64,000 bases of DNA, taken from Thalassomonas viridans (lineage in GTDB: Bacteria; Pseudomonadota; Gammaproteobacteria; Enterobacterales; Alteromonadaceae). Below the pieces are notes generated by a model that was not told where the DNA came from, made no database searches, and worked only from the letters and a program-made list of their open reading frames with translations. Both the position numbers and the translations under genes were made by a program. This document shows, piece by piece, positions 1 to 36,889 of this stretch. The stretch is from the NCBI RefSeq assembly GCF_000948985.2, contig NZ_CP059734.1, positions 558,001 through 622,000 of the forward strand, written 5' to 3'. Within the stretch, counting starts at the first letter, position 1, and each line of letters begins with the position of its first letter.

Positions 1-1373
1 TATAACATATAGGGAGACGGCTGCTGCAGTTCAAAATACTCGCTCGCCTTTTCTTCGATAACGATAGGGGCGATGGGCCTGAACCACTCCCGGCCTTTGA
101 TGCTTTGGTTGATCCAGTGGCGGGTCACGGCGAAACAGGGGCTGGCCACAAAGCTTCTGTTGCCCAGGGCGCGCGGGCCGAATTCGCTGCCCCCCTGGTA
201 TAGTGCCAGCACATGTCCCCGGGCCATCAATTTAGCGCAAGTGTCCGCCAGGTCATCCGGCTTGAGGACGTCACAACCCGTTATTCCGGCAAAACTGCCG
301 GCATCGATAGCGGCTTGGTTAACCGGCCCCAGGTAATCATGCTGCCAGTCGAAACTCAGGGGCTGCCTGAGCACCTGGGTGATGCCATAGATGGCGCAGC
401 CGATGGCCGAGCCGCCGTCATGGGGAGCCGGCGGGATGGACATCTGTTCAAAGATACCGCTGTGCCGCAACCGGGTGTTGGCGACAACATTGAGGGCGCA
501 GCCGCCGGCATAACAAAGCTTGCTTTGCGCGGTTTCCTGCTGCAGCCAGCGGCTGATTTTCAGCAGGGCATTTTCGAAAACCTGCTGGCCACGCGCCGCC
601 AGGTGAGCCTTGGTTTGAAAACTGTGATTGTCGGTGCGCTTGTATTCGTAATCGGCTTGCTGGTTAAAGATATCCAGCCAGGGCCGGGGGATGGTGACTT
701 CGCCTTCGTTGACGTCAAGCTCCGGCAGATCGGATCTCACCCGGGGATCACCGTAAGCGCTCAGCCCCATGACTTTGCCGTCATTGCCGTCGCCGTGGAA
801 AAAGCAGCGGCTGAGGAAATTGTAGAAGATGCCCAGTCCGACCGGTTTAGTGCGGTCCCCGTCCCAGAGATGCTTTTTGATGCAACGTACCCCCTGCGGG
901 GTGCAAAGGTAATAAGACGCGACTTCCAGCCAGTTTTCCTGGTGCCGGGAAACCGGATAGTCTTCGGTGAAATCCCGGGCATAGCTGCCCTGGAAATCTA
1001 TGATCATGGCGGCGCTGCTGTCAAAGCCGGAGGTGGGCCAGGCGCTGTACAGGTGCGACAGGTGATGGGAAAGGCGGATGCGTTCGCCGTCCGGGGCCAG
1101 GGTGAGCTCCCGTGCCATTTCTTCGTCGTATGCGCCGGCGTTTTCCTGTTCGCTATCGGATGAAAAACACTCTACCACCAGGTTTAGCGGCTGCTTTAAC
1201 TGGGGCAGCCTTTGCTTATATAAGGCGATATCCCCGAGCTTGCCCCAGTCATGTTTGATGCCTGTGATCCTTTCTTTGTGCAAAGAGCTGGCATGCTCGC
1301 CGTTTTTGAAAATACTGATGCTGCCATCTTGGGTCCGGTTTAAGCCGACAACTATTTTTTTATTGTTATTCAA
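1..1373 (-). CDS. NodU/CmcH-family carbamoyltransferase (3' end outside window)
   Basis: About 457 codons are visible and the reading frame runs off the left edge; the family is usually near 570-600 residues. These enzymes transfer a carbamoyl group from carbamoyl phosphate through carbamoyl-adenylate to a hydroxyl of a natural product. Seen directly: an N-terminal HHLSHLYSAW segment (Kae1-like fold histidines), GGCALNVVANTRLR, and the C-terminal-domain signatures GSEFGPRALGNRSF and KGREWFRPIAPIV. The start is uncertain. TTG at 1373 has GGAG nine bases upstream, and an in-frame GTG lies at 1388. The frame stays open to about 1617 without an ATG. The gene is divergent from the peptide cluster and probably supplies a carbamoyl decoration to its product, which is inference. 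No Met start is present near the conserved N-terminus. Confidence 0.88.
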   Translation of the reverse strand, partial: MNNNKKIVVGLNRTQDGSISIFKNGEHASSLHKERITGIKHDWGKLGDIALYKQRLPQLKQPLNLVVECFSSDSEQENAGAYDEEMARELTLAPDGERIRLSHHLSHLYSAWPTSGFDSSAAMIIDFQGSYARDFTEDYPVSRHQENWLEVASYYLCTPQGVRCIKKHLWDGDRTKPVGLGIFYNFLSRCFFHGDGNDGKVMGLSAYGDPRVRSDLPELDVNEGEVTIPRPWLDIFNQQADYEYKRTDNHSFQTKAHLAARGQQVFENALLKISRWLQQETAQSKLCYAGGCALNVVANTRLRHSGIFEQMSIPPAPHDGGSAIGCAIYGITQVLRQPLSFDWQHDYLGPVNQAAIDAGSFAGITGCDVLKPDDLADTCAKLMARGHVLALYQGGSEFGPRALGNRSFVASPCFAVTRHWINQSIKGREWFRPIAPIVIEEKASEYFELQQPSPYML

Positions 1374-1955
1374 GTAATTATACTCCACTACTTTTACTGA
1401 ATGTCTGTTTTGTCTGGTGCCTGTATCGGCAATCAAGGTGAACACCCGGCAGCGGCTTGCCACGGGGGAATAGCGCCCGTGCGCCTGGTGTTTGCCGTTA
1501 ACTGCAAAGGTTAAATATCCCCTGAATTGCCTGCGCCTTTGACTGGCGGTGCCTGTTGTTTGCACCTTGGCCTGAAGTTTTAATAACAGGGACTTTAGTG
1601 ATAAACCGGGGGGAAATCAATAAATTAATTTTCCAGGCCCGGGGATGAATCCCTGCCGGGGCACGGGGGGCGATTAAATTGTTATGAATTTATCCTTTAA
1701 TTAGTTGTTTTTTGATATAAAAAGGATATAGACTTTGCTCCGTCGCTTATCTGGCTGAGCCGGTTTTGACGGTTATTTTCATAAAGGCGCTTGTATAAGA
1801 AAAAGATGCATGCTGTTGGCAGGGGCCAACCATGGCAGAAGCCGGCTCCCGCCACCGGGGAACCGGCGTATTCAGGTTGCAGTTTATGTATAAGTATTTG
1901 ATAACTATGCTGCTTTAATGCCAGACTCGGATAAGCGCAGATGATGTATAAAAAG
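1374..1955. other. Divergent intergenic region, no convincing gene
   Basis: This stretch lies between the carbamoyltransferase and the first gene of the plus-strand cluster, so it should contain promoters for both. I see no promoter with good spacing. TTGACG at 1766-1771 and TATAAG at 1794-1799 are 22 bases apart, which is too far. The part up to about 1617 continues the carbamoyltransferase frame upstream without a stop, but it has no good start codon. Confidence 0.4.
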
Positions 1956-1981
1956 AAAAAAGGCTCATAAGAGCCTTTTTT
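1956..1981 (+). terminator. Intrinsic terminator hairpin, possible attenuator
   Basis: A perfect 11-bp stem (AAAAAAGGCTC / GAGCCTTTTTT) with an ATAA loop ends in six T residues. It lies only 27 bases before the GTG start of the first cluster gene, with no plus-strand gene upstream that would need it. It could be a leader attenuator for the long operon, or a terminator protecting the operon from upstream transcription. A promoter between hairpin and start codon would leave almost no leader. The A-tract on the other arm makes it usable in both directions. Confidence 0.75.
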
Positions 1982-2008
1982 AATATAATAAAATGCAGGG
2001 TTTAAGCA

Positions 2009-3091
2009 GTGCAAAAGAATCGTTCTATAGTCCTGATCGGGCTGGGAGACCTGGCCAAAAGGATCGCGTTTTCCCTTATGAGTTCTCCTGCGGTTGAATT
2101 CGATGATCTGGTTATCATCAGCCGCAATAAAGCAAACGGCGAGTCTTATACCCGCCTGCTCTCAGGCTGCGGTGAGCGCCGTGTCCGTTTTTGCCAGCTG
2201 GATGCCCTGGATACCCGGGCCCTGGCCGGGGTGTTGAAGTCGGTCAATCCGCAACTGGTTATCCAGTGCGCATCTTTGATGTCCCCCTGGCTGTTATATG
2301 AAAGCCGGGGACAAAAAGCCAAACACTTGTTAACGTCGGGATTTGCCGCACAACTGCCGGCGCAGTTGCCTGTGCCTGTTTCCGTGATGACGGCCCTGCA
2401 TGATGCCGGCTTGGATGTTCCCGTTATCAATTGCTCATACCCGGATGTGGTCAATCCGGTGCTGGCGCGTTTAGGCCTGCCCGTGGCCCTGGGGATAGGC
2501 AATAGCGGCATGATCCACGGGCTGGTGCGTGCCGAATTGCAAAAAGCCGGTACGGATACCACGGCTTTACGGGTGTTCGGCCACCATGCCCATGTTGCCA
2601 GCGTGGCAAACAGTGAATTAAAGGCCGGCATGCCGGCGCCTATGGCTTATCTGCATAATGAGGCCGTGCCGGTACAGGCGGCCCTGTTCGCCCAGCCGGG
2701 GATCATGCTGAACCGGGAATTAAATGTGCTCACGGCGGCGCATGCCGTTGAAGTCATCGGCGCCATGACGGGGGAGGATAAAACCCTTTGCACTTCAGTG
2801 CCGGGACCTTTGGGGCTGGCGGGAGGCTGGCCGGTGCGTATTTGCAACACGGCTATCGACCTGGATTTACCTGAGCAGGTGAGCCGGGCACAGATCTCCG
2901 GCTATCAGGAACAGCTGGCGGTATTTGACGGGGTCGGCAAAATCGATGATGACGGCACAATACATTTCAGTGACGGCTGCCGCGATTCGTTAAGCCGGCT
3001 TTCCCCCGGGTTATCCGAGCCGCTGGCGCCTTTGCAAAGCCTGCAACGACTAACCAAAATAAATGAGTTATTGAATAATGATGAACCCTAG
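2009..3091 (+). CDS. Saccharopine-dehydrogenase-like NAD(P)-binding protein
   Basis: This 360-residue protein has an N-terminal Rossmann motif (IVLIGLGDLAKR, about residues 7-18) and the general layout of saccharopine dehydrogenase/homospermidine-synthase-type oxidoreductases. Those enzymes reduce imines or form secondary amines between amino acids and carbonyl compounds. The start is GTG at 2009 with AGGG eight bases upstream; the ATG at 1993 is in another frame. It is the first gene of a tightly packed series and overlaps the next gene by 14 bases. Its place beside an amide ligase and a transketolase suggests a role in making or modifying an unusual building block, which is inference. The family assignment rests on fold-level features only. 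Confidence 0.55.
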   Translation: MQKNRSIVLIGLGDLAKRIAFSLMSSPAVEFDDLVIISRNKANGESYTRLLSGCGERRVRFCQLDALDTRALAGVLKSVNPQLVIQCASLMSPWLLYESRGQKAKHLLTSGFAAQLPAQLPVPVSVMTALHDAGLDVPVINCSYPDVVNPVLARLGLPVALGIGNSGMIHGLVRAELQKAGTDTTALRVFGHHAHVASVANSELKAGMPAPMAYLHNEAVPVQAALFAQPGIMLNRELNVLTAAHAVEVIGAMTGEDKTLCTSVPGPLGLAGGWPVRICNTAIDLDLPEQVSRAQISGYQEQLAVFDGVGKIDDDGTIHFSDGCRDSLSRLSPGLSEPLAPLQSLQRLTKINELLNNDEP

Positions 3092-4943
3092 TTTTAAGGC
3101 TATCTATGGCATTATTGCCAAAAGCCATGCCGGACAGCGCCGGATGGCCAGTGATTTTAACGCCGTTTTGCCGCAGTCTTTTCCTTATCAGGCGCAGCAC
3201 TGGTGGCAGGATTTGGACAAAGGGGTTGCGATTTATTCGCCGGACAACCCGGGAGGCTGCCTGGCCGGTGTTGGCCACCTGGTAACAGATACCCCGGCAG
3301 GCATTGCGGGGGATCTCCGTGAGCAGGGGGTGGCTGCGGCCGTCTTGCAGCAAATCCAGAGCCGGGGGGTCGGGGCCCTGGATGATATCTCCGGTGAATT
3401 TTCCCTGCTTGCCTGGGATGGCATGCGTAACGAGCTTTTGCTTGCCCGCGATCAAGTCGGGCAATCCGGCCTCTATATCCGGGAAGACGAGCATCACTGG
3501 ATGATCTGTTCCGATATGGAGCCCCTGATCGCCGATGAAAAGTTTCATTGCCAGATGGATCTGCAGTCGGCAGTTAACTACCTGACGTTCGGTGTGCCCG
3601 TTAATGGCCGTACCCTGGCCAAAAATGTCAGAAAATTGCGGGCCGGGCATTACATCCGTGTCGCTCCGGGCAAACCTTTATACGAACAACGTTATTTTAC
3701 CCCCCTTTGCCATAACGCCGAAAGCTGTGCCGGCCCCGAACTTAAGCAAGAGATTCAGGCGACCCTGGACAGCGCTATTTTAAGCCGGGCCAATGAAGCC
3801 CGCGAAGAAAAAAGCAGCGCGATTCTGTTATCCGGCGGCATAGATTCTTCCTATATCGCCCAGACCCTCACCAACAGGGAAATGACGCAGGGATTGACGG
3901 CCTATACCATAGAATTTGCCCCTCCCTGTAAAAGCAACGAAACCGGGCTGGCCAGCGAGTTTGCCCGTATGCTGAATATCCCGCATCAGGCGGTTTTCTT
4001 TGATTACCCCGATGTCACTAAAACCCTGGACAAGATAGTGAACGCGGTAGAACCCTGCAGTATTCTCTCCAGCATCACCCATGAGTATCTTCTCGGGGAG
4101 ATACAGGCGGATGGCCATGATTTTCTGATTTCGGGCCTGGGATCCGATGAAATCTTTGGCGGCTATATCAAATACATGAATTTTTACAGCAGCATGCGCC
4201 TGTATGGCTGTGACGATGCGGCGGTGCAGGCGGCGGCCGGGCATGGCGTAGATACTTTCGAGCAGCTGCTGTGGCAACCTGAACGGATCAATGACACTGT
4301 CTTTGCCGGCATACCGCGCTTCTTTAGCGGGCAAACGGCAAAAACCATGTTACAGCCGCCGTTTAGGGACTGGGATTATTCCGCGTATTTAAGCGAATTT
4401 TACCGTGAATGCCGGCAGCTGAAATCCGATGCCCACCTGTTTGAACTTATGGTTGCCCACGAATGCCAGCACCGCATTCCTGAAATGTTGCTCGGCGGCT
4501 TTGACGCCATTGGCCGGGGAGCGAATATCCGTACGGTTTATCCTTTCCTGGATAAGAACCTGGTGAGGCTGGCGACAGGCCTGGGGGCAACCGAAAGGTT
4601 TGAAGTGCGAAACAATGCCTGGAACAATAAAACTCTCATGCGTGAGATCGCGGCAACAAGATTGCCTGAGGCGATTTGCGAGCGGCCAAGACAGGCCTAT
4701 GTGCCTCCCATGATGCTTTGGCTGGCGCACGATGAGTTTTTTGACTATATCTGGTCGGTTATCGAAAACAGCAAGATACAGGAGCTCGCTTTGATTGATC
4801 CGGAAAAACTGCCTGAGCTGAAAGAGCGGGTACGCGGGCTGGCGGGAACTTCCAATCTCGACGGACCGCTGGAGCTGATTGATGAAATGTGGGTCATTTT
4901 CACCCTATCCGCCTGGTACGACCGCTGGGTGAGTAAGCAATAA
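3078..4943 (+). CDS. Asparagine-synthetase-like ATP-dependent amide ligase without glutaminase Cys
   Basis: The 621-residue protein has an AsnB layout: an N-terminal class II amidotransferase-like fold (about 1-200) and a C-terminal ATP-pyrophosphatase domain. The latter has the PP-loop SGGIDSS at about residue 252 and GLGSDEIFGGY near 355. In true AsnB the mature protein begins with the catalytic Cys (MCGI). Here the equivalent position reads IYGII, so glutamine cannot be hydrolysed. The same loss is known in beta-lactam synthetase and lasso-peptide cyclases, where the domain adenylates a carboxylate and an amine other than ammonia attacks. A role in amide or lactam formation on a precursor or on the peptide is inferred. 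The start may be 3078 or the adjacent ATG at 3081. Confidence 0.82.
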   Translation: MMNPSFKAIYGIIAKSHAGQRRMASDFNAVLPQSFPYQAQHWWQDLDKGVAIYSPDNPGGCLAGVGHLVTDTPAGIAGDLREQGVAAAVLQQIQSRGVGALDDISGEFSLLAWDGMRNELLLARDQVGQSGLYIREDEHHWMICSDMEPLIADEKFHCQMDLQSAVNYLTFGVPVNGRTLAKNVRKLRAGHYIRVAPGKPLYEQRYFTPLCHNAESCAGPELKQEIQATLDSAILSRANEAREEKSSAILLSGGIDSSYIAQTLTNREMTQGLTAYTIEFAPPCKSNETGLASEFARMLNIPHQAVFFDYPDVTKTLDKIVNAVEPCSILSSITHEYLLGEIQADGHDFLISGLGSDEIFGGYIKYMNFYSSMRLYGCDDAAVQAAAGHGVDTFEQLLWQPERINDTVFAGIPRFFSGQTAKTMLQPPFRDWDYSAYLSEFYRECRQLKSDAHLFELMVAHECQHRIPEMLLGGFDAIGRGANIRTVYPFLDKNLVRLATGLGATERFEVRNNAWNNKTLMREIAATRLPEAICERPRQAYVPPMMLWLAHDEFFDYIWSVIENSKIQELALIDPEKLPELKERVRGLAGTSNLDGPLELIDEMWVIFTLSAWYDRWVSKQ

Positions 4944-4944
4944 C

Positions 4945-5793
4945 ATGGGAAAGAATCTTATGGCGGTAGCCGTGCAAGAAAATGCCAGCCAGTCGCTGGC
5001 AGAAGAAGTATACGAACTCAAAGGCGAGATCCTGAAAACCCTTTATGCGGCAGGGGGCGGGCATTACGGCGGCTGCTTAAGCGTTATCGACATCTTAGTG
5101 GTTTTATACCGTTATAAATTAAGGATAAACCCCGCCGTGCCCGAACATGCGGCCAGAGACAGGTTTATTTTATCCAAGGGCCATGCCGCCGTTGCCTTAT
5201 ATGCAGTTTTGCAAAAGCTGGGTTATTTCCAGGATAATTTACTGGACTATTCCCTTTTCGGTTCGGCCCTTGAAGGCCATCCGGACATGCTGACGGTGCC
5301 CGGCATCGATTTTTCTTCCGGTTCTTTAGGCCAGGGGGTCTCGGTGGGACTGGGTATGGCCTTGTCCTTACCCCGGGACAATAATGTCTGGGTAGTGCTC
5401 GGGGACGGCGAGTGCCAGGAAGGACAGATTTGGGAGTCTGCCATGCTGGCGTGCAATACCGCAGTGTCCAATTTGAAAGTGATTGTTGATTGCAACAAAC
5501 ACCAGGAGTGGGGATGGGCCGAGCGCAACGGCGAAAAGCCGGCGCCGGTCAGCGACATGGTTGAGAAATGGCGGGCATTTGGCTGGCATGTGGTGGAATG
5601 TGACGGCCATGACCACAGGGCCCTGATGGCGGCCATGGACGAGGTGGACGCCCATAGCGGACAGCCGGCGGTGATTATTGCCCATACGGTGAAAGGGAAA
5701 GGCGTGGTCGCCATTGAAAAAGACCCGGTGCGTTTTCATTGCGGCACAGTAACAGAAATCGAGCATTATCAAATCATGCGCGATTATTCGTAA
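4945..5793 (+). CDS. Transketolase N-terminal (ThDP pyrophosphate-binding) subunit
   Basis: The protein has 282 residues. The ThDP/Mg-binding motif is complete: GDGECQEGQIWE at about 152-163, followed by N near residue 180. The conserved transketolase segments ILSKGHAA, GHP and GSLGQGVSVG are also present. It would form the active enzyme with the next gene, as in split transketolases of archaea and secondary-metabolite clusters. The reaction is transfer of a two-carbon ketol unit, but the substrate is unknown. The start may be ATG 4945, one base after the preceding stop, or ATG 4960, which has GGGA about nine bases upstream. Its position inside an NRPS operon argues for a biosynthetic role rather than the pentose phosphate pathway. 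Confidence 0.85.
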   Translation: MGKNLMAVAVQENASQSLAEEVYELKGEILKTLYAAGGGHYGGCLSVIDILVVLYRYKLRINPAVPEHAARDRFILSKGHAAVALYAVLQKLGYFQDNLLDYSLFGSALEGHPDMLTVPGIDFSSGSLGQGVSVGLGMALSLPRDNNVWVVLGDGECQEGQIWESAMLACNTAVSNLKVIVDCNKHQEWGWAERNGEKPAPVSDMVEKWRAFGWHVVECDGHDHRALMAAMDEVDAHSGQPAVIIAHTVKGKGVVAIEKDPVRFHCGTVTEIEHYQIMRDYS

Positions 5794-5826
5794 GCAAAAG
5801 ATAAGCTAAAGTGGGAAAGTAAGATT

Positions 5827-6771
5827 ATGAGTAAATTAGCCGACCAGATCGGTATAGTGCTGGCCGAAATGGCCGAGCAGGAGCCGGATATCTTCGTGCT
5901 TGACGGTGATCTGGCGGATTCCGACGGTGCGATACATTTTGCACAACGGCACCCGGAGCAGTTTTTAATGGCGGGCATCGCCGAGCAGAGCATGCTGAGC
6001 GTTGCCGCCGGTATGGCCAGTGCCGGACGCAGGCCTTTTGTGTTTTCTTTCGCGGCTTTTTTATGCTTTCGCGCCTATGATCAGGTCCGGGTATGTTTAA
6101 GCCAGTCGGAGCAGCCTGTGGTGATGGTGGGCTCCCATGCCGGCGGCCTGTCGGGACGAAACGGCAAGACCCATACGGCAATCAATGATATGGCGCTGAT
6201 GCTCTCCTTACCTAAGGTTCAAGTGTGGGCGCCGGCGGATCATCTGGATATCGCCTATATGTTGCCTGAATTAATGCAAAGCGAGCAGGCGGCTTATGTC
6301 AGGGCTCCCCGTTGTCCCGTCGGGGCCGGGCAGAATTTGCCCGGTGAGGCGGGCAGGTTCAGGTGGCTAAGGCCGAAACAGGCCGTTACCCTGGTCAGCT
6401 GCGGGGTGGCAAGCCAGTGGAGTTACCAGGTGGCATGCCGGCTGCAGCGTCAGGGGATCGACCTGGGACTGTTACACTGCCTGCATGTGAATGATGTCGA
6501 CGGACTAAGGTGCCAGCTTGACGGCGCAGAACAAATCTTTGTGATCGAAGACCATAACGAATTTGGCGGGCTGGCGTCCTTAGTGCGCCAGCTGGACTTG
6601 CCGGCACGGGTTAAAGGCATCGGCTGGCCGATGGATTTCAGCGGCAAATCCGGCGATGATCACGAGATCCGGCAAGCCTATGGTTTGTCCGACAGCCAGC
6701 TGGCAGCCTGGTTGCTCAACGCCCTGCAGGCGGAGCAGGGATATCTTGACTTATGTGAAGGAGAGCAGTAA
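5827..6771 (+). CDS. Transketolase C-terminal (pyrimidine-binding) subunit
   Basis: The 314-residue partner of the preceding subunit carries the transketolase pyrimidine-binding domain. GIAEQSM (about 50-56) provides the Glu that activates ThDP, and LDGDLADSDG lies at the front. The C-terminal transketolase domain begins near residue 170 and includes VIEDHNEFGG. The stop codon overlaps the next start (TAATG at 6769-6773), so translation of the peptidase is probably coupled. Together the two subunits match full-length transketolase domains in order, although full-length housekeeping enzymes are single chains of about 660 residues. Confidence 0.85.
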   Translation: MSKLADQIGIVLAEMAEQEPDIFVLDGDLADSDGAIHFAQRHPEQFLMAGIAEQSMLSVAAGMASAGRRPFVFSFAAFLCFRAYDQVRVCLSQSEQPVVMVGSHAGGLSGRNGKTHTAINDMALMLSLPKVQVWAPADHLDIAYMLPELMQSEQAAYVRAPRCPVGAGQNLPGEAGRFRWLRPKQAVTLVSCGVASQWSYQVACRLQRQGIDLGLLHCLHVNDVDGLRCQLDGAEQIFVIEDHNEFGGLASLVRQLDLPARVKGIGWPMDFSGKSGDDHEIRQAYGLSDSQLAAWLLNALQAEQGYLDLCEGEQ

Positions 6772-8609
6772 TGCCAGGCAGGGAAGCTTATCTTAACCGC
6801 CTGAACCCTTTGTGGTGGCTCGGGCGGTTGCGGGCAGGGATGCTGCCTGTGTTATTCTGGCTGGCGGCGCTGCCCTGCGGCGCCGGCGAGCCGTCTCCTG
6901 ACACAGGCGCCCGGCAGGACATTGATTTTCTGGCCTACCGGGCCCATCTGGAGCCGGATCCGGCACGGCAATCAATAAAAGGCCGGGTCGAGATAGCCTT
7001 TAAGGTACTGACAGCCGGGGTGACCCGGCTGCCGCTAACGGCCATTAACAAAGACATTTATGCCGTGCGGGGAGCCGGGATCCAATCCCACCGGGTCGCC
7101 GGTGAATATCTTTATGTCGAGTATCCGGCAAAAACCCTGAAAAAAGATCAGGTATACCGTTTGACGGTGGAATACCTGGCGACACCGGACAAAGGCATCA
7201 GCTTTTACCCGGATCATTTTTATACCCATTACCACACCGAACAATGGCTGGTCGCCCATGAAGATATCGGTGATCGCGCCAGGATTGAAATGTGGCTGAC
7301 CTTGCCGCGGCACATGAAGGCGGTGGCCAATGGCGAGCTGATGGCGGTTAAGGCAAGCGGTGACAAACGGATACATCACTGGAATGAAACCCGGGAAAGG
7401 CCCTTGTTTACTTTCGGTTTTGCCGCCGGCAACTTTACCGAAACCCTGTTGCGCCATAAGGGGATGGAGTTCCGCTATTTATCCCTGGTTTCCCGCGAAG
7501 ATGAAATCTCCCGTATGTTCGCCGACGTCCGGGCCATTTATGATTTTTTTGAACAGAAAAGCGGTATGCCGTTACAGCAAAAACGTTACACCTATGTACT
7601 GACCGAAGGCAACGCCATGCAGGAAGCCAGCGGTTTTAGCCTGATCGGCCGCAACATTGCCCGCGATGTGCTCGACGAACCCAGGGAGAGCTGGCTTATT
7701 ACCCATGAACTGGCGCATGAATGGTGGGGCAATGCCATTTCCGCCGCTTCCTGGTCTGATTTTTGGCTCAACGAAGGCCTGGTGCAGTTTTTAGTGGCCG
7801 CCTTTAAAGCACAGCAGTACGGGCAGGATGAGTACGACAGGGAAATGGTGCTGTTCAAAGAGTCTATCCACAGGCGGTTAAAAAAATCTCCTGTGCTCAG
7901 GGCGGTTTCCCCGCAGCAGAAGCTTTCCTTTGCCGACTATAAAAAGCATTACCGCGGGATAGTTTATTCCAAAGGCGGCTATATTTTTCATATGCTGAAA
8001 ACCGAGCTTGGCGAGCAGGACTTCTGGCGGGGCCTGAAGCATTACAGCCAGGCAAACTGGGAAAGCACGGTAAGTTCGCGGCAGCTGCAGCAGGCGTTTG
8101 AGTCCGCCTCCGGGCGCAACCTAGAGCATTTTTTCAATACCTGGGTATACCGGCCCCAGCAAATCGAACTGGCAGCCCGGGTCAGCTACCAGCCGGGGCG
8201 CCTGGCGATACGTTTTCGCCAAACGCAGCAGGAGCCGGCGGATTTTCATTTTTGGCTGGCGGTTGATGACGGTGGGCAGCGGCGGCTTAAGCGGGTGAAT
8301 ATTTCCGGTGCCGAGCACCTGGTCGAGATCAAGATGCAGCAGCCGCCGCAAGGGCTCTGGCTCGACTATTATCATTATCTGCCCCTGCCGATAAAGGTTA
8401 CGGGGGCTGATGACTATATCCAGGCTAGTATCTTCAGCGAGGTCACCAGCCTGACACGCTACTGGGCTTTAAAAAGCCTGGTAACAAGTGATTACTGCAG
8501 GCATGAGCCGCAGCGCATCGAGCGTACTTTTGCCCGGTTAAAGCAAGTAGACACCAGCCGGATCATTCACCAGGCTATCGCTTGGTGGCGGGAAGCATGT
8601 CCGGGATAA
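6771..8609 (+). CDS. Secreted M1-family zinc metallopeptidase with altered GAMEN motif
   Basis: The protein has 612 residues. An N-terminal hydrophobic stretch (about 24-37, GMLPVLFWLAALPCG) looks like a signal peptide, placing it in the periplasm or outside. The gluzincin motif HELAHEWWG begins at residue 312, with Glu335 in NEG giving HEXXH-X18-E. The aminopeptidase GAMEN motif, which holds the free N-terminus of the substrate, is NAMQE here (about 284-288), so exopeptidase specificity may be changed or lost. It is translationally coupled to the transketolase subunit. In this cluster it could trim or activate an exported pro-form of the peptide, or give self-protection; both are inference. 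A housekeeping aminopeptidase is less likely from its position. Confidence 0.85.
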   Translation: MPGREAYLNRLNPLWWLGRLRAGMLPVLFWLAALPCGAGEPSPDTGARQDIDFLAYRAHLEPDPARQSIKGRVEIAFKVLTAGVTRLPLTAINKDIYAVRGAGIQSHRVAGEYLYVEYPAKTLKKDQVYRLTVEYLATPDKGISFYPDHFYTHYHTEQWLVAHEDIGDRARIEMWLTLPRHMKAVANGELMAVKASGDKRIHHWNETRERPLFTFGFAAGNFTETLLRHKGMEFRYLSLVSREDEISRMFADVRAIYDFFEQKSGMPLQQKRYTYVLTEGNAMQEASGFSLIGRNIARDVLDEPRESWLITHELAHEWWGNAISAASWSDFWLNEGLVQFLVAAFKAQQYGQDEYDREMVLFKESIHRRLKKSPVLRAVSPQQKLSFADYKKHYRGIVYSKGGYIFHMLKTELGEQDFWRGLKHYSQANWESTVSSRQLQQAFESASGRNLEHFFNTWVYRPQQIELAARVSYQPGRLAIRFRQTQQEPADFHFWLAVDDGGQRRLKRVNISGAEHLVEIKMQQPPQGLWLDYYHYLPLPIKVTGADDYIQASIFSEVTSLTRYWALKSLVTSDYCRHEPQRIERTFARLKQVDTSRIIHQAIAWWREACPG

Positions 8610-8744
8610 AGGCGGGCCGGGGAGCCGGCCTGAAGCGGCACCGAGATCCGCCTTTGCATCAAATGGCCGGCTTGGCCATTATGCGTTTGATTCGCTAAGG
8701 GAATTACTGTAACCTTCTGTTGTTTTTTAATAGGTAAGGAAGTT

Positions 8745-21094: not shown

Positions 21095-21159
21095 CCATTG
21101 CCGGGTCGGGCGAGAGCCTGCCGAATTCCTTTTCCTGATTAAATAAGAGTAGTATTTTC

Positions 21160-24100: not shown

Positions 24101-27100
24101 AAAGTGAAGCACAGCTTATTGCCGGCATCAAGGCGAAACTCAAAGAGCTGTTGCCGCATTATATGATCCCCGGCGTTTTTATGCTGCTGGCGGAAATGCC
24201 GAAAACCCTCAACGATAAAATTGATACCAGGCGTTTGGCGGAAATGGCGATACAAAGCGATGACGCGGTTGTGGCGCCGGAAACCGACAGCGAGAAAGTG
24301 TTAACCCGGATTTGGCAAAACGTGCTTAAGCGCCAGGACATCAGCATCACCGCCAACTTTTTTGAGCTGGGGGGACATTCCCTGCTGGCTACCCGGGTAG
24401 TCACTGCCGTAGCCCATGAATTCGATAAAAAAATCAGTGTTAAGGATATTTTTGAGTTCGGGCAAATCAGGCAGCTGGCGGCCCATATAGATACCCTGGC
24501 GTTAATGAAGAATACCGGGATCCCGCGGCAGCCGTCCGGGGGGCTGTTCCCCTTGTCGCCGCCGCAATTATCCCTCTGGTTGATCGATCAGCTGGAAGAA
24601 AACAGCATTCATTATAATATGCCCCATTCCACCACTTTGATCGGTCCGCTTAACTTTGATGCCCTGCAACAGGCAATGAATGCCATTGTCGCCCGCCATG
24701 AAATATTGCAGGGCAATATTGTTCTGGCGGGCAATGAGCCCAAGATCAAGCTGACGCCGGTTGAGCGGGTGCCTATCGGCTTTAGCGATTTATCCGCACT
24801 GGCGGACCGGGAAGATAAGTTAAAGGCGGCTATCAGGCAAAATGCCGCCCGGCCCTTTGATTTGCATGCCGATGCGCTTATCCGCTGCCATGTCTATAAG
24901 ATGTCGGCACAGGAGCATGTCTTTTCCTTTGTGATGCACCATATTGTCTCCGACGGCTGGTCGATGAATATTCTTTCCCGTGAGCTTTCCGAGCTCTATA
25001 ATGCTTTTTCAGGCGGCAAAGAAAATCCTTTACCTGAGCTGCCGATACAATATGTCGATTACAGCACCTGGGCCAAGATGGACGAACAGCAGGCCAGGCT
25101 GGAGCGCTCCCGGCAATTTTGGCTGCAACAGCTAAAGGATATGCCTAAAGTGCATAATTTGCCTTTGGCGGCCAAGCGGCCTAAAGAGCAGGTGCTTACG
25201 GGAAAACTGTTGCAGCAACAGCTTGATGAGCAGCTGCTGTCCCGCCTTTACCGCCTGGTGAAAGCAAACAATTCCAGTTTGTTTATTGTCCTGCAAAGTG
25301 TTTTTACTATCCTGGTAAGCCGCTGGAGCAATGAAAACGATATCGTGCTCGGCACCCCTTCGGCGGGACGCTCTTACCAGGACGTGGAAGGCCTGGTGGG
25401 ATACTTTGTCAATGTCTTGCTGCTGCGTAATAAGCTGGATCACGGTAAAAGTTTTGTCGAATTACTGGCGCAATTTAAGCAAACCACCATGGACGCGCTG
25501 GAACATCAGGATATGCCCTTTTATAACCTGGTGGCGGAGCTTAATCCTGAGCGCTCCCTGGGGTACAGTCCGCTATTTCAGCTTTCGTTTGCGCTGCAGA
25601 ACATGGAATTGTCAGGTTTCACCTTTGATGAGCTGAAACCTAAAGACATGACCTTGCCTAAAACCAGCTATCTGGCCTGTCGCCGCGAAGGCGTTCCCTG
25701 CCGTTTTGATTTAGAGGTAACCGCTTCGGAAGTGAACGGCAAGCTTAATATCGTGTGGTTATATGCCGACGGCCTGTTCGAGGACAGGGTCATAGAGACC
25801 ATGGCCGAAAATTACCTGCATTTGCTGGCTTACTTTGTCGAAGAGTTCGAAAAACCTATTTGCCAGGCGCCGCTTTCGCCCCCGGTTAAATGCCCTAATA
25901 CGCCTGAGGGGAGCCGGGAGCGGGAAACGCCGGCTAAACATGTGATGGTGCACTTTAGTGAACTGGTTGCCGCTCAGCCACAGGCATTAGCGCTGGAAGA
26001 TGAAAACAGGACCTACAGCTATGGCGAGCTGCAAGACAAAGTCAATGCCCTGGCCCACAGCCTGCTGGCAGCCGATGTCCGGCCGGGACAAGTGATCGGC
26101 GTATACAGTCATCGTTCGATAGAAGCGGTGACCGCGGTGCTTGCCATCTGGCAGCTGGGCTGTGTTTTTCTGCCCCTGGATCCTTCTTATCCAAACAGCC
26201 GCCTGGAGCATATGGTCCGGGACTGCGCCGCTGACCGTATTCTGGTTGATGAAAGCCTGCTTGACACCTGCCATTTCCCACAGGAGCTCTGTGTTCCCTT
26301 AACCCGGACCCATGCCCCGGGAGAAACGCTTCCCGGGACCGGCTACCTTGAGGCCGGGCATCCGGCTTATGTGATCTATACGTCCGGGTCTACCGGCAAG
26401 GCCAAAGGGGTTAAGGTGGGCCATGAGCAAGTATCGGCATACCGGGATAGCGTGCTATCAACCTATGGCGGCAGGGGCGGCAAGAAAGTCTTTGGCATAT
26501 CCTCCATCAGTTTTGATATTTTTATTGAAGAACTGGTGTTGTCGTTATTTAGCGGCGGCGCCCTGCTGGTGGTGGATAATGCTGCCGAGCTCAGCGCCGA
26601 CAAGTTTTGGCGCCTGGCCGGCAAACATCATATAGACATTGCCACTTTACCCACGGCTTATTACCACTACCTGTGTGCCGATATCAAAGCAAGCCATGCT
26701 GCTGTTGCCCGGGATCAGCTGACCGGCGTGATCCTTGGCGGCGAAGCCATGCAGGTGCAGGCGTTGCAGGCCTGGCAGCAGCAGGTAGGGGATAAGGTCA
26801 AAGTCTGGAACACCTATGGGCCGACGGAATGTACTGTGGTGGCGACGGCATTTGAAGCCAGCCGCTTTACGGCAAACGGGAGACAGAGCATTCCCATCGG
26901 CCGGCCCCTGCCGCATATGCAGGCTTATGTGCTGGATCGGTACGGGCATGTTTGCCCCGACGGCATGGTGGGAGAGCTCTATCTGGGGGGCACCGGTGTC
27001 GCACTGGGCTATTTAAACAATCCTGAGCAAAATGCCCTGCGCTTTGTCAGCAACCAGATTGCACCTGGGCAGGGCCCTTTGCTTTACCGGACCGGTGATC

Positions 27101-28524
27101 TGGTGAGGATGGCAGAAGATGGCCAGCTGGAGTTTATTGCCCGGGTGGATCACCAGGTTAAAATCCGCGGTTTCAGGGTTGAACCTGCTGAAGTGGAACT
27201 GAACCTGGCGCAACAGGAGCAAGTGCACAATGCCATTGTGCTGGCAGATAGAGACAGCCAGGGAAATAACCAGCTGCTGGCCTTTATCGTGCCGGAGGCC
27301 ATGCCCGGGGATGTCAACAAGTACAAAGCAGCATTGCGTGACACCTTGCTCGGTCTTTTGCCGCCCTATATGCTGCCGCAGCGGATGATTATCCTGGATA
27401 AGCTGCCGTTAACCGTCAACGGTAAACTGGATAAAACGGCGCTGTTGAAACTTAAAAACCACCAGGACGAGCATTTACAGCTTGAATTAGCCGCCGATAT
27501 CCTTGAGGTACGCTTATCTGCCATCTGGCGCCGTTTGCTTGGCCTTAGTCAGGTGGATGTCACCGACAGCTTTTTTGCTTTGGGCGGTCATTCGCTGCTG
27601 GCCATGACCTTGCTCAATGAAGTCAACCAGGCTTTTAACCGCAGGTTAACCGTGCGTACCCTGTTCAGTCACCAAAGTATCCGGGCTTTTGCCAATTATC
27701 TGCGCGAAGAGCAGGATGAGCATGCCTGTCCGCAAGCGCTGATCCCGTTACAGCCAGGTGAAGATAACGCGGCCACCCTGGTGCTGATCCACGGCATAGA
27801 CGGCGATGCCCTGGCATTTCGCGAGCTGGTGCAGGCCATACCGGCGGAAATGAAAGTGGTGGCTTTGCAAAGCGTTACCGAGGATAAACAGGCGAGCCTG
27901 GTGCAGCTGGCGAACAGCTACCTGCAGGCGTTAACGCAGCAGCACCGGGGGCCGTTGATACTGGCCGGCTGGTCGATGGGGGGCATAGTCGGATATGAAA
28001 TGTACCGCCAGCGGCGCGAGCAAGGTTATCAGGATGATCTGCTGATCATGCTTGACAGCTTTGCCCCGTCTGATACCGTAGCAGGCACCTGGCAACAGAG
28101 TATGAAGTTATTCGCGCGCTCTTTAGGGATATCCGGTTATTCGCGCGACAATCTCGCTGAAATTCCCCGGGATGAAGATACAGCGCTTGATTTATTATTT
28201 ACCTTCGTTAAACAGCAATTTCCCGGCACGGCGTTAAACCGGCAAACCCTGGCGTCACGCTGGCAGGATATGCGTACAAACGAACAAAGGTTAACAGATT
28301 ATAAAATAAAACCTGTCCCGGGGGCGGCTCAATTGATTATGGCGGGGGCACAACAGGCCAATGCCCTGGAGTCGGGCTGGAGGGGACTGTTAGCTGAGCT
28401 TGACATCACAGTTATTGATGAAGCCGATCATTATACTCTGGTGAAGCAACCCTATGCCGGTAAAGTCGCAGAGAAAATCGCGGCGATTTATCAGCAAAGT
28501 CGCCAGGCAGTTAGTGCTCAATGA
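21160..28524 (+). CDS. NRPS, two modules plus thioesterase: TubC docking - C-A-T - C-A-T - TE
   Basis: The protein has 2454 residues. A TubC docking domain (1-55) comes first. C1 has HHIVFDGW near 200. A1 has YTSGSTGKPKG near 678, code DVIYLGGVCK (unrecognised), and an A10 motif NDKID where Gly is usual before Lys. T1 is near 1067. C2 has HHIVSDGW near 1261. A2 has code DIETIGTVVK; the acidic residue at position 239 with T-V-V resembles codes for Lys/Orn-type diamino acids, so a basic residue is a weak prediction. T2 is near 2138. The type I thioesterase (about 2200-2450) has GWSMGG, LDSFAP and DEADHYTL as its Ser/Asp/His set and would release or cyclise the chain. This is the terminal NRPS. 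A hairpin follows the stop. Confidence 0.94.
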   Translation: MVENILAAASQAGVALFLADDKLKFKAKKGALDAQLKAQIAANKDAIIAHLKKQPPAPSQGKTDEHLHPLSYNQRSLWFLNQLHKDSLGQYNIPCVYELNGALDSQAFISAIEQVIERHQILRTNFIEQDNQVSQRIQKSLKISRRIRDLSAVAGNQQEMVAQIIAEESARPFDLANDPLIRVSLLRLSDEAMVVLFVFHHIVFDGWSVQIFTSELTELYTSLVQQRASTLQPLPIQFSDYVRWQHQQLSSDKLSPHLDYWLEQLRDAPAVHRLPLDKSRPTQQSFAGASLARTMETEALGRIHDFCRELGINANIFFYGLFSLYLGRLSGSRDIVLGSPVSGRERRELEPLIGYFVNTLVLRQKWSDNLSLGQFLQQSKDILFDAFAHSVVPLDLLVDKLQPKRSLSFSPVFQITYSYKNIGQTGTGAHNGLSITPRTSAMTTSKFDLGLSVSLVDGGAQLSWNYNTSLFSEQTIAGYADGFIHFIGQALAGPQQDINALSMVSPAQALLLESWNQTDSPGDGDTSILDVFEQHAATSPRQLAACDGSRSLTYGQLAEATDKLACYLIEQGLEQEQVVAICLPRNINWLVAIIAVLKAGGAYTPIAAELNPDRMAFIVEDTRALMMISQTCVPLPAKLGAKVLCLDELPEQMPAANRQQLQQRRQLFSPRQLAYIIYTSGSTGKPKGVMIEHASLMNLLSAMATQFAIEKHSRCSWWSGVAFDVSVIELFMPVYIGGSVHVIDEASRLQPELLFAWMAGAGIQHSYLHAAHIEAMTDYVEKADAPGLALRSMLVGVEPIQAAKLAALTRALPGLTVVNGYGPTETSVCATAFTYRHGMTMPEQKIVPIGKALANYRLYVLDENLQPCPVGVTGGLYIGGAGLARGYLNRETLTRENFIASDYGRLYRTGDQVRFLPSGDLMFVGRLDNQVKVRGFRIELGEVESALSQLACVRENAVLVRGEDGDKYLAAYIQAQPGPEQSEAQLIAGIKAKLKELLPHYMIPGVFMLLAEMPKTLNDKIDTRRLAEMAIQSDDAVVAPETDSEKVLTRIWQNVLKRQDISITANFFELGGHSLLATRVVTAVAHEFDKKISVKDIFEFGQIRQLAAHIDTLALMKNTGIPRQPSGGLFPLSPPQLSLWLIDQLEENSIHYNMPHSTTLIGPLNFDALQQAMNAIVARHEILQGNIVLAGNEPKIKLTPVERVPIGFSDLSALADREDKLKAAIRQNAARPFDLHADALIRCHVYKMSAQEHVFSFVMHHIVSDGWSMNILSRELSELYNAFSGGKENPLPELPIQYVDYSTWAKMDEQQARLERSRQFWLQQLKDMPKVHNLPLAAKRPKEQVLTGKLLQQQLDEQLLSRLYRLVKANNSSLFIVLQSVFTILVSRWSNENDIVLGTPSAGRSYQDVEGLVGYFVNVLLLRNKLDHGKSFVELLAQFKQTTMDALEHQDMPFYNLVAELNPERSLGYSPLFQLSFALQNMELSGFTFDELKPKDMTLPKTSYLACRREGVPCRFDLEVTASEVNGKLNIVWLYADGLFEDRVIETMAENYLHLLAYFVEEFEKPICQAPLSPPVKCPNTPEGSRERETPAKHVMVHFSELVAAQPQALALEDENRTYSYGELQDKVNALAHSLLAADVRPGQVIGVYSHRSIEAVTAVLAIWQLGCVFLPLDPSYPNSRLEHMVRDCAADRILVDESLLDTCHFPQELCVPLTRTHAPGETLPGTGYLEAGHPAYVIYTSGSTGKAKGVKVGHEQVSAYRDSVLSTYGGRGGKKVFGISSISFDIFIEELVLSLFSGGALLVVDNAAELSADKFWRLAGKHHIDIATLPTAYYHYLCADIKASHAAVARDQLTGVILGGEAMQVQALQAWQQQVGDKVKVWNTYGPTECTVVATAFEASRFTANGRQSIPIGRPLPHMQAYVLDRYGHVCPDGMVGELYLGGTGVALGYLNNPEQNALRFVSNQIAPGQGPLLYRTGDLVRMAEDGQLEFIARVDHQVKIRGFRVEPAEVELNLAQQEQVHNAIVLADRDSQGNNQLLAFIVPEAMPGDVNKYKAALRDTLLGLLPPYMLPQRMIILDKLPLTVNGKLDKTALLKLKNHQDEHLQLELAADILEVRLSAIWRRLLGLSQVDVTDSFFALGGHSLLAMTLLNEVNQAFNRRLTVRTLFSHQSIRAFANYLREEQDEHACPQALIPLQPGEDNAATLVLIHGIDGDALAFRELVQAIPAEMKVVALQSVTEDKQASLVQLANSYLQALTQQHRGPLILAGWSMGGIVGYEMYRQRREQGYQDDLLIMLDSFAPSDTVAGTWQQSMKLFARSLGISGYSRDNLAEIPRDEDTALDLLFTFVKQQFPGTALNRQTLASRWQDMRTNEQRLTDYKIKPVPGAAQLIMAGAQQANALESGWRGLLAELDITVIDEADHYTLVKQPYAGKVAEKIAAIYQQSRQAVSAQ

Positions 28525-28544
28525 TGCTGTTACTGAAAACTTTG

Positions 28545-28566
28545 AAGATCAGCGTTTGCTGATCTT
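28545..28566 (+). terminator. Hairpin after the terminal NRPS gene
   Basis: A perfect 9-bp stem AAGATCAGC / GCTGATCTT with a GTTT loop starts 21 bases after the NRPS stop. The tail (ATTTACAATTTTTAC) is only moderately T-rich, so termination may be partial and allow some read-through into the export genes that start at 28600. Confidence 0.6.
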
Positions 28567-28599
28567 ATTTACAATTTTTACAAGAGAGTTAAATTTAAA

Positions 28600-29847: not shown

Positions 29848-29899
29848 CACCGGCGCCGGTTATCGCTGGCTTTAATTAAACAATGGAATAAATAAAATA

Positions 29900-30595: not shown

Positions 30596-30608
30596 GGTTT
30601 TATCTGTT

Positions 30609-33026: not shown

Positions 33027-33043
33027 CGTCTTTAATTTATCCG

Positions 33044-33082
33044 GGACTTCCTGTCGGGCATGCTCCTGCCGGGAGTCCTTTT
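33044..33082 (+). terminator. Hairpin after the exporter genes
   Basis: GGACTTCC (33044-33051) pairs with GGGAGTCC (33071-33078) with one G-T wobble. An inner GGCA/TGCC pairing is possible and four T residues follow. It separates the exporter genes from the PLP-enzyme gene, which has its own strong ribosome site. Confidence 0.6.
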
Positions 33083-33139
33083 CCAAAATACACAGACTGA
33101 AGAGACATTAGTAAATAATAAAACCAAAGGAGTGAAGTC

Positions 33140-34336
33140 TTGGATATTCTTCAAGTTGTAGAAGAGAAAATTCACACATTAAAAAGCAGTGCCAACTATC
33201 GCCAATTTGTTGCCCTGAATAAGAGTGCAGACACTTTCCCTTTAGCTAAAACAGTTAAGGATGCCGGGGAAGAAGTAATGATTTGTTGCAGCCTGGATTA
33301 TTTAGGCATGGGATCACATCCCAAGGTGTTGGCTGCGGCACAGGAAACAATCGCCCGTAGTGGCGTGAGCTCAGGCGGTTCACGTAACTTAAGCGGCACA
33401 TGTGAGCAGCATGTGACCTTAGAGCAGGAGCTTGCCCGCTATCATAATAAGCACAGCGCGCTGGTGTTTAACTCTGGTTATCTCGCCAACCAGGTCACGA
33501 TGAATCTGCTCGGCAGCAAAATCGATGACGTTGTTATTTTTTCCGATGAGCTTAACCATGCTTCAATCATTGACGGCACCCGCTCTTCCGGGGCGAAAAA
33601 AGTGATTTATCGCCACAATGACTGCCGCGATCTCGAAGAGCAGCTTAAAAAAGTTGATATTAATACGCCTAAGGTGGTTGTGTTTGAATCTATTTATTCT
33701 ATGGAAGGGGACATTGCCGATGTTGAAACTACCTTAGCCGTAGCGAAAAAATATAACGCCCTGACCGTGCTCAATGAAGTACATGCCTTAGGCATTTTCG
33801 GCGAATCCGGCCGGGGGGTAGCCTCATCCCTGCCGCCACAATTGCAGCCTGACCTTATTATCGGCAGCCTGTCCAAAGGGATAGGGGTTTTTGGCGGATA
33901 CATAGTCGGTAGCGAAAGTATGGTTGATTTCATCCGCAGCTTTGGTTACGGCTTTATTTTTACCAGCTCCCTGCCTCCCAGTATCGTAGCTGCGGCGCTG
34001 GCGAGCATTAAACACCTGCAAGCAAGCGATACCGAACGTGAGCGGGTGTTAAAAAATGCGGCATTATTACGGCAAGAGTTGCTTAAGGCCGGACTGCCCA
34101 TGATGCCCTCGCAAACCCATATTGTTCCTGTACTGGTCGGCGACAGCCAAAAGAACAATGAGTTAAGCAAGCGCTTGCTGGACGAGTATAATATCCTGGC
34201 GGTTGCGGTGAACTTCCCAACCGTGGCCATGGGCACCGAACGGTTACGTTTAGTCGTTACCGCCAAGCATACCGAACCTATGATCCACCGCCTGGTCAGT
34301 GCCCTTAAAGCATGTATGCAAGAAGATAAATGCTAG
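33140..34336 (+). CDS. 5-Aminolevulinate-synthase-like alpha-oxoamine synthase with Asn at the PLP-ring Asp
   Basis: The protein has 398 residues. The start is TTG 33140 with AAAGGAG eight bases upstream. Strong family features are GSRNLSGTCEQHVTLEQEL, HASIIDGTRSS, FESIYSMEGDIA, the PLP lysine K246 in GSLSKGIGVFGGYI, and the C-terminal HIVPVLVGD and AVNFPTVAMGTERLR. It resembles ALAS more than 8-amino-7-oxononanoate synthase. The family Asp that contacts the PLP ring nitrogen (DEVHAVG) is Asn212 here (NEVHALG). Gammaproteobacteria make heme precursors by the glutamyl-tRNA route, so a role in the neighbouring cluster is more likely than heme synthesis. Whether it is catalytically active is uncertain given N212. 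Confidence 0.85.
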   Translation: MDILQVVEEKIHTLKSSANYRQFVALNKSADTFPLAKTVKDAGEEVMICCSLDYLGMGSHPKVLAAAQETIARSGVSSGGSRNLSGTCEQHVTLEQELARYHNKHSALVFNSGYLANQVTMNLLGSKIDDVVIFSDELNHASIIDGTRSSGAKKVIYRHNDCRDLEEQLKKVDINTPKVVVFESIYSMEGDIADVETTLAVAKKYNALTVLNEVHALGIFGESGRGVASSLPPQLQPDLIIGSLSKGIGVFGGYIVGSESMVDFIRSFGYGFIFTSSLPPSIVAAALASIKHLQASDTERERVLKNAALLRQELLKAGLPMMPSQTHIVPVLVGDSQKNNELSKRLLDEYNILAVAVNFPTVAMGTERLRLVVTAKHTEPMIHRLVSALKACMQEDKC

Positions 34337-36848: not shown

Positions 36849-36889
36849 TTACTTGGTTTCCGCTGCTTTCTTGTTGGCTTAAAGGAGGT

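Follow-up and report, generated by a model that had tools for sequence, protein, structure and literature searches.

A portable gene cassette with a split transketolase and a Cys-less asparagine-synthetase-like ligase lies in a PKS-NRPS cluster of Thalassomonas viridans and may tailor a ribosomal peptide

The 64,000-nucleotide stretch of Thalassomonas viridans analysed here (hereafter, the window) spans G000:C2:558001-622000 of a 7.9-Mb genome (G000) in two contigs. By gene content, the window holds the right part of one predicted cluster of approximately 64 kb (C2 ~527,960-592,336) that encodes a polyketide synthase (PKS) and nonribosomal peptide synthetases (NRPS). Near its left end, the window carries four core genes, SDHl, AsnBl, TKN, and TKC, which recur together in other bacteria, often behind a small gene for a candidate precursor peptide. 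In this study, the cassette, its relatives, and these peptides are described, and the relation of the cassette to the surrounding PKS-NRPS cluster is weighed. Positions without a contig prefix are those of the window. The cassette and the genes that follow it are listed below.

2009..3091, + strand: SDHl, NAD(P)-binding dehydrogenase-like protein, the first core gene of the cassette
3078..4943, + strand: AsnBl, Cys-less asparagine-synthetase/beta-lactam-synthetase-like ligase (PF00733)
4945..5793, + strand: TKN, transketolase N-terminal subunit, for thiamine diphosphate (ThDP) (PF00456)
5827..6771, + strand: TKC, transketolase C-terminal subunit (PF02779, PF02780)
6771..8609, + strand: M1, M1-type metallopeptidase, probably secreted (PF01433)
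8745..9548, + strand: GT1, glycosyltransferase related to beta-1,4-galactosyltransferases (PF02709; beta-1,4-galactosyltransferase in the PDB, E 2e-5)
9533..10522, + strand: GT2, GT2-family glycosyltransferase with TPR, related to SunS and GmaR (TIGR04195, E 4e-27, below the cut-off)

An initial annotation of the window had listed a split transketolase, a Cys-less AsnB-like ligase, a secreted M1 peptidase, two glycosyltransferases, a saccharopine-dehydrogenase-like enzyme, a carbamoyltransferase, a 5-aminolevulinate synthase (ALAS)-like enzyme, and five NRPS modules. Its observation of this gene set was confirmed, with three amendments, given below: the name of SDHl, the strand and extent of the carbamoyltransferase, and the start of the cluster. 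The ThDP motif GDG...N and the glutamate of GI(A/S)EQ were kept in all eight aligned transketolase copies, as is expected of this enzyme. In AsnBl, residue 2 (the nucleophile position) is not Cys in any of seven copies, although the Luteibacter copy has a Cys at residue 8. The motifs S(G/S)GxDS and G(L/M)G(S/A)DE were kept in the seven aligned copies, and the best Foldseek matches of the predicted structure (model pLDDT 81) were TsnB9, AsnB, and beta-lactam synthetase. With a predicted AsnB fold, no catalytic Cys, and a retained ATP-binding motif, AsnBl has the features of a Cys-less AsnB-type ligase. The zinc site of M1 (HExxH-18-E; HELAH...E) is intact, and an apparent signal sequence was seen by eye. 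M1 carries NxMQE where the GxMEN motif would be expected; a 40% relative beside the P. luteoviolacea cassette carries NxMQE too. In the PDB, GT2 matched the peptide/protein glycosyltransferases GmaR (1e-20) and SunS (5e-18).

The name saccharopine-dehydrogenase-like is a weak description of SDHl. The profile of its relatives (A1) matched carboxyspermidine/saccharopine dehydrogenases over the N-terminal ~85 residues only, and the window protein had no Pfam or NCBIfam family match at E<=0.001. One relative (P0005) reached 25.7 bits against PF03435, for a cut-off of 25.1, whereas the window protein had no Pfam match. The predicted fold was nearest lactate/malate dehydrogenase (LDH/MDH).

Homologues of SDHl amounted to 118 proteins, the own protein included; scoring was confined to the 7,996 candidates with the most words in common, and few of the homologues are named. 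A scan of genome contigs with a single SDHl protein as the query gave no relative, whereas the scan with alignment A1 gave 98, and the loci of the best 80 of these 98 were studied. Using tblastn with the window proteins, SDHl, AsnBl, TKN, and TKC were found together at six of the 80 loci, all from other genomes: Pseudoalteromonas luteoviolacea (L012), Parachitinimonas caeni (L013), Chromobacterium subtsugae (L014), an Acidobacteria metagenome-assembled genome (MAG; L015), Luteibacter (L016), and an Ectothiorhodospiraceae MAG (L021). Complete cassettes are present in seven genomes, the window's own included. Across the six loci, identities to the window proteins were 34-49% for SDHl, 29-42% for AsnBl, 43-60% for TKN, 35-59% for TKC, and 47-67% for GT1. 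GT1 accompanied the cassette at five of the six loci (L013, L014, L015, L016, and L021) and GT2 at four (L013, L014, L016, and L021). In P. luteoviolacea, the core cassette is located on contig C9, and GT1 and GT2 are located on contig C14, directly before the relative of the first window NRPS gene (NRPS1). A partial set, TKN-TKC-GT1-SDHl, was found at a contig start in genome G757, where the 12 kb read held no match to AsnBl. Within the genus of the window's genome, G001, G002, and G003 were searched with SDHl and gave no full-length match.

Wider searches were carried out with TKC, and their counts include the query's own genome. Matches were found in one of 61 genomes of the Chromobacterium family; in three of 108 Pseudoalteromonas genomes, two of them at 33% and with TKN as the sole other cassette gene (3.8 kb); and in nine of 396 Acidobacteriota genomes, eight of them at 34-35% and with TKC alone matching within 3.9 kb. 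The four matching genomes among 369 of the class were the own one, G757 with its partial cassette, G680 (coordinates same as those of the Ectothiorhodospiraceae MAG, G064), and G661, in which no SDHl or AsnBl match was found in 16 kb. The G661 locus (L140; G661:C158) encodes a distant split transketolase (34-40%) in what appears by eye to be a polysaccharide-like gene set. Viral contigs gave one 67-residue match. Plasmids gave SDHl relatives at 24-29% in 20 records and transketolase matches at 28-34% in 13 records, with no match to GT1. The genome comparisons show SDHl-AsnBl-TKN-TKC to be, as a gene set, a portable cassette that recurs in unrelated bacteria. A second TKC match lies on the Chromobacterium cassette contig (G061:C12:264541), and a 297-aa protein of no Pfam family is encoded just 3' of the Parachitinimonas cassette (L013:17712-18605, + strand).

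In four of the six relatives (L012, L013, L014, and L016), a small open reading frame (ORF) lies directly upstream of SDHl on the same strand. Each of the four has a double-glycine (GG) leader, the core motif (N/S/D/C)-T-(G)-K (TK motif), and a ribosome-binding-like sequence, and the TK motif occurs twice in three of the four cores. A profile of these four peptides matched the T. viridans genome at C2:473295-473390 (E 2e-7), in a gene that spans C2:473292-473438; this peptide was not in the profile. By sequence, all five ORFs, each with a GG leader and a ribosome-binding-like sequence, are putative ribosomal precursors with a leader and a core.

L012, P. luteoviolacea, core: KDISRDVLANFSAGRSTKDVAYLQLAASTKDNSFLA
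L013, Parachitinimonas, core: QQGEIVATLLGRVRGDNTKGGSAKGEILSTLLRRIDDEDTKGGGEL
L014, Chromobacterium, core: AGEISAKYLKLRAENTKSGEIQAQYLKLVSESTK
L016, Luteibacter, core: AATNNGELSTTRLHQPVECTGK
C2:473295-473390, T. viridans, leader: MQDKKTELNETQLQAVAGG (...LQAVAGG); core: KGEISTDLLKQYEEMNVTAGDTKDSQALY

With the own peptide added as a fifth row, the profile matched one of the 369 class genomes at E<=0.01, namely the own one, a score that is circular because the own peptide is one of the rows. Among 14 chosen genomes, the five row genomes matched at E<=1e-14. At E<=0.5, no peptide match was obtained in G001, G002, G757, G661, G064, or G066; the matches in G003, G062, and G065 were at E 0.06-0.48 only, and the one in G003 (E 0.06) lies in a stop-containing frame. 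Over 13,211 small ORFs of the loci, with overlapping loci counted more than once, 86 were GG-leader-like and 15 of these also had the TK motif. Of these 15 rows, 12 repeat the five peptides and three represent two unrelated frames. Two further candidates were rejected. The GG-leader match at C1:1638144 (E 0.97 with the four-peptide profile and 0.06-0.65 in leave-one-out searches) was rejected as a second precursor because its core has no TK motif. The G065 match (L151; E 0.003-0.026) is a 30-residue frame without a GG leader. A small GG-motif ORF without the TK motif is located downstream of the Chromobacterium cassette (L014:18257-18409, + strand).

Two of the relatives also carry a peptide exporter beside the cassette. 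In L016, HlyD and a C39-peptidase ATP-binding cassette (ABC) exporter were identified by Pfam, and L014 has HlyD and, in another frame than the ORF first tested, a C39-type exporter recognised by sequence. The cassette is read as a system for ribosomal-peptide tailoring because it is recurrent, because GG-leader ORFs stand upstream of it, because the own genome encodes such a peptide, and because C39 exporters accompany it in two relatives. The kinship of GT2 with peptide/protein glycosyltransferases and the missing nucleophile Cys of AsnBl in all seven copies also speak for this reading. A modification system of the type that acts on ribosomally synthesized and post-translationally modified peptides (RiPPs) is the simplest account of the portable cassette and the peptide. 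Judged from its relatives, the cassette probably decorates a short ribosomal peptide and is not a mere amino-acid supply to the assembly line. We consider it moderately likely that the locus as a whole is a large PKS/NRPS cluster with a portable RiPP-type tailoring cassette built in.

Several results weigh against this reading. The precursor gene adjoins the modifying genes in L012, L013, L014, and L016, whereas in the window's genome it lies 86.6 kb to the left of SDHl on the same replicon. No peptide gene adjoins the window cassette in a six-frame translation of 1501-2080, in a GG-leader pattern search of 1-36000, or in a TK-pattern search of the window; an own peptide gene inside the window cassette was thereby rejected. 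Neither the Acidobacteria MAG (L015, G062), which has the full cassette, nor G757, which has the partial one, yielded such a peptide. In L021, a protein of another type, of 240 aa with seven DTGKD motifs, is encoded upstream of SDHl. In leave-one-out searches of 38,154 ORFs from 165 loci, three of the five peptides were clearly recovered (T. viridans, 2e-8; Chromobacterium, 1e-5; Parachitinimonas, 3e-4), but that of P. luteoviolacea reached only E 0.067 and that of Luteibacter was not recovered. A C39 exporter was seen beside only two of the seven cassettes, and the own genome was not searched for one. In addition, condensation domains adjoin the cassette in three of the seven genomes (G000, P. 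luteoviolacea G059, and Luteibacter G063), which a purely ribosomal role leaves unexplained. In Luteibacter, two genes on the opposite strand separate the NRPS genes from the cassette.

The NRPS neighbours of these three genomes speak for the initial annotation, in which a two-carbon transfer, a reductive amination, and an amide ligation could build a free non-proteinogenic amino acid for loading by the NRPS. The window cassette lies within the NRPS cluster and is co-directional and tightly packed. LysW-carrier pathways likewise build an amino acid with a split transketolase. An SDHl relative (35%) is found inside an NRPS cluster that lacks the other cassette genes, in a Psychrobium MAG (L022, 7602-14734); this cluster includes a Rieske oxygenase, a thioesterase, a carbamoyltransferase (40%), and a phosphopantetheinyl transferase, with no transketolase or AsnBl match. 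However, the full set of left-hand genes occurs at L013, L014, L015, and L021, where the retrieved stretches of 13-21 kb contain no match to NRPS1, and the L013 and L014 cassettes adjoin GG-leader ORFs with no such match in 21 kb. In the whole genome of G064 (L021), no condensation domain reached E<=1e-20, whereas G060, G061, and G062 have NRPS genes elsewhere in the genome, among the matches listed. GT2 resembles peptide glycosyltransferases, and SDHl is unlike a saccharopine-type reductive aminase beyond its nucleotide-binding part. We regard a free-residue supply as unlikely and as less likely than a tailoring role, and as the sole role of the cassette it was rejected. The interpretation in the initial annotation is partly supported: the transketolase and amide-ligase assignments stand, the LDH/MDH-like fold of SDHl does not support reductive amination, and the left-hand genes find no support as an NRPS precursor pathway. 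The annotation itself had held that conservation of these genes in NRPS-less genomes would speak against it; the four genomes without a nearby NRPS1 match, and G064 in particular, do so, and the NRPS neighbours in three of seven genomes do not.

The remaining cluster genes of the window are listed below, with their relatives in P. luteoviolacea, where C, A, T, and TE denote condensation, adenylation, thiolation, and thioesterase domains.

11091..14471, + strand: NRPS1, TubC_N-C-A-T by domains; 39% relative at the same place
14462..21094, + strand: NRPS2, TubC_N-(C-A-T)x2 by domains; 43% relative
21160..28524, + strand: NRPS3, TubC_N-(C-A-T)x2-TE by domains; split relatives, 32-40%
28600-29847, + strand: HlyD-type adaptor; 55% relative in the same order
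29900-30595, + strand: ABC ATPase; 71% relative in the same order
30540-33026, + strand: MacB/FtsX-type permease; 53% relative in the same order
33140..34336, + strand: ALAS-like alpha-oxoamine synthase (TIGR01821, 479.8 bits, cut-off 338.55)
1..1565, - strand: carbamoyltransferase, N-terminal 521 of 632 aa (PF16861, PF02543); the remainder lies left of the window

The five C-A-T modules, encoded by three genes (11091-28524) whose products each open with a TubC_N docking domain, and the terminal thioesterase form an NRPS assembly line. The A-domain codes, read by hand, were DAMSVGGLAK, DSWFIGAIGK, DAQCVGVVDK, DVILLGGVCK, and DIETIGTVVK. Only the third (Gln/Glu-like) and the fifth (basic) resemble known codes, and substrate prediction from the codes was discarded as too weak for naming a peptide. 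The ALAS-like enzyme scored above the family cut-off, and none was found at E<=1e-60 in the three genomes of the same genus. The carbamoyltransferase is present as annotated, but on the minus strand and running past the window edge; the whole gene (632 aa) is C2:557667-559565, and a 48% relative is located near the cassette in the Acidobacteria MAG (L015). All genes from 2009 to 34336 are on the plus strand and overlap or are spaced by <=135 bases, except for a gap of 568 bases between GT2 and NRPS1.

The initial annotation placed the start of the cluster at base 1. The adjoining stretches, however, hold approximately 30 kb of further plus-strand cluster genes to the left.

C2:527960-533206, + strand: loading protein, AMP-binding-T-C-A-T (A-T-C-A-T) by domain search; we take its first domain to be a FAAL, for fatty-acyl-type loading
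C2:533203-540975, + strand: NRPS
C2:541570, + strand: sulfotransferase-like gene, named by eye, without a Pfam match
C2:542729, + strand: PhyH dioxygenase
C2:543536-549079, + strand: PKS, by eye
C2:549169-552444, + strand: NRPS
C2:552508-554943, + strand: penicillin acylase
C2:555002-556747, + strand: left-hand exporter
C2:556792-557649, + strand: polysaccharide deacetylase

The stretch from PhyH to ALAS is syntenic on contig C14 of P. luteoviolacea S2607 (G059), in the order PhyH-PKS-NRPS-acylase-exporter-GT1-GT2-NRPS1-NRPS2-NRPS3-adaptor-ATPase-permease-ALAS. Identities were 60% for PhyH, 51% for the PKS, 45% for the NRPS, 49% for the acylase, and 52% for the exporter; 72% for GT1, 54% for GT2, 39% for NRPS1, 43% for NRPS2, and 32-40% for NRPS3; and 55% for the adaptor, 71% for the ATPase, 53% for the permease, and 64-65% for ALAS. 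Unlike the window, C14 lacks the deacetylase, the carbamoyltransferase, and SDHl-AsnBl-TKN-TKC-M1 at the syntenic place, and it has in addition a 642-aa NRPS gene and a sulfotransferase. For the PKS-NRPS part, the initial claim of an unusual gene combination in a coherent cluster is supported. Another PKS-acylase-exporter-NRPS cluster, at G000:C2:481003-506680 (L161, L011), is similar to the left part of the window cluster; it shares 38-47% identity with the PKS, acylase, and exporter of P. luteoviolacea.

Contig C9 of P. luteoviolacea (L012) carries the four core cassette genes and M1, a loading protein with two A domains and the domain composition of that at C2:527960-533206, a thioesterase, a sulfotransferase-like relative (41%), and an NRPS with 36% identity to C2:533203-540975. 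C9 and C14 may adjoin, because both contigs end inside NRPS genes. By gene content and order, the window cassette is probably carried by a PKS-NRPS cluster common to the two genomes. The cassette and the cluster might instead be independent and merely adjacent, since the P. luteoviolacea cassette is on another contig rather than between the exporter and GT1, and the own peptide gene is distant from the cassette. Yet GT1-GT2, elsewhere companions of the cassette, stand directly upstream of NRPS1 in both genomes, and the P. luteoviolacea cassette contig carries the cluster-like genes named above. An accidental neighbourhood is highly improbable.

Because NRPS genes adjoin the cassette in three of seven genomes, two routes that link peptide and assembly line come into question. 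PEARL and LysW carrier systems offer a precedent for the first, in which a residue would be assembled on the ribosomal peptide as a scaffold and then cleaved off by M1 to feed the NRPS. Of the 80 loci, only that of P. luteoviolacea has M1 with the cassette; this genome shares the PKS-NRPS cluster, and peptide, cassette, and cluster co-occur in both genomes. Nevertheless, its apparent signal sequence probably places M1 outside the cytoplasm, in which the NRPS operates; in two relatives, a peptide exporter accompanies the cassette; and the TK motif is internal in most cores, whereas the site in PEARL scaffolds is C-terminal. We judge this scaffold route quite unlikely. In the second route, the modified peptide would be joined covalently to the PKS/NRPS chain, perhaps by AsnBl, as in lipolanthine-type hybrids, which are marked by a lanthipeptide synthetase and an acyltransferase that joins the PKS and RiPP parts. 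The cassette lies between NRPS genes on P. luteoviolacea C9, and in Luteibacter, NRPS and PKS-like genes and the two opposite-strand genes are followed by exporter, peptide ORF, and cassette on one strand. AsnBl, however, also occurs in cassettes without adjoining NRPS genes, and the NRPS has its own thioesterase; a hybrid product has a similarly low probability.

For a tailoring cassette, the following course can be proposed. The cassette enzymes would act on the core of the GG-leader peptide. GT2, being SunS/GmaR-like, could place a sugar onto Ser/Thr, which GT1 would extend and the neighbouring carbamoyltransferase might carbamoylate. A carbonyl would be formed on the core, and SDHl, with its LDH/MDH-like predicted fold, would make or reduce it. 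A two-carbon ketol unit would be transferred to a core aldehyde by the two-subunit transketolase; the site would most simply be the conserved Lys or an acidic side chain, which is a guess. AsnBl would activate a carboxylate by adenylation and form an amide with an existing amine, so that glutamine would not serve as a source of ammonia. The leader would be removed by the C39-type exporter in two relatives, and M1 may share in maturation here. The NRPS line, with its fatty-acyl-type loading protein, penicillin acylase, and two export systems, would make a lipopeptide of its own, linked or not to the ribosomal peptide. A bolder proposal, which we hold to be conceivable but doubtful, is a new RiPP class in which the transketolase adds a two-carbon ketol to the side chain of (N/S/D)-T-K and AsnBl closes an amide, with a glycosylated, possibly carbamoylated PKS-NRPS hybrid product in three genomes. 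If the tailoring reading is right, ThDP-dependent carbon-carbon bond formation would be added to ribosomal-peptide chemistry, through a gene set that is small and portable and for which five bacteria supply substrates ready for testing. The locus would then also be an example of a PKS-NRPS cluster bearing tailoring genes for a peptide, which raises the directly testable question of whether both lines meet in one molecule. Genome mining that looks only at NRPS context would take the transketolase genes wrongly for precursor supply.

To the right of the cluster, genes on the minus strand at 34753-40651 encode a GntR regulator, an FAD oxidoreductase, a HAD hydrolase resembling phosphonoacetaldehyde hydrolase, and a TonB-type receptor (the last two by eye); they are perhaps a phosphonate-use operon unrelated to the cluster. 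Two adjoining minus-strand frames at 43036-44556 with low GC content at third codon positions (GC3) resemble, by eye, a broken IS66-type transposase.

The cassette has features in common with several known systems. With glycocins of the SunS type it shares the resemblance of GT2 to SunS, but the disulfide-bearing Cys core of glycocins is absent, there being no Cys in four of the five cores and one in that of Luteibacter, and extra enzymes are present here. Lasso-peptide cyclases and beta-lactam synthetases likewise lack the nucleophile Cys, and AsnBl has a fold match to beta-lactam synthetase and a weak NCBIfam lasso-cyclase match below the cut-off. AsnBl is, however, only 14-16% identical to solved structures of the AsnB superfamily, and no lasso or beta-lactam gene set was recognised at the cluster. 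The split transketolase is common to LysW pathways such as that of vazabitide, whereas no LysX-type ligase was found among the window genes run through Pfam. About 8 kb away from the cassette of Chromobacterium, a LysX-like ATP-grasp ligase (L014:789-1706, - strand; PF08443/PF22626) and, in a neighbouring frame, a small LysW-like protein with the last residues EDWGE (by eye) are encoded. No described RiPP class is known to include a transketolase, or to combine one with a Cys-less AsnB-like ligase and a protein of LDH/MDH fold. RiPPs with GG leaders and export by a C39-peptidase transporter (PCAT) share with the cassette the GG leader, a precursor upstream of the modifying genes (four relatives), and a C39-type exporter (two relatives), and the cassette differs from them by its two-subunit transketolase, its Cys-less AsnB-like ligase, and its protein of predicted LDH/MDH fold.

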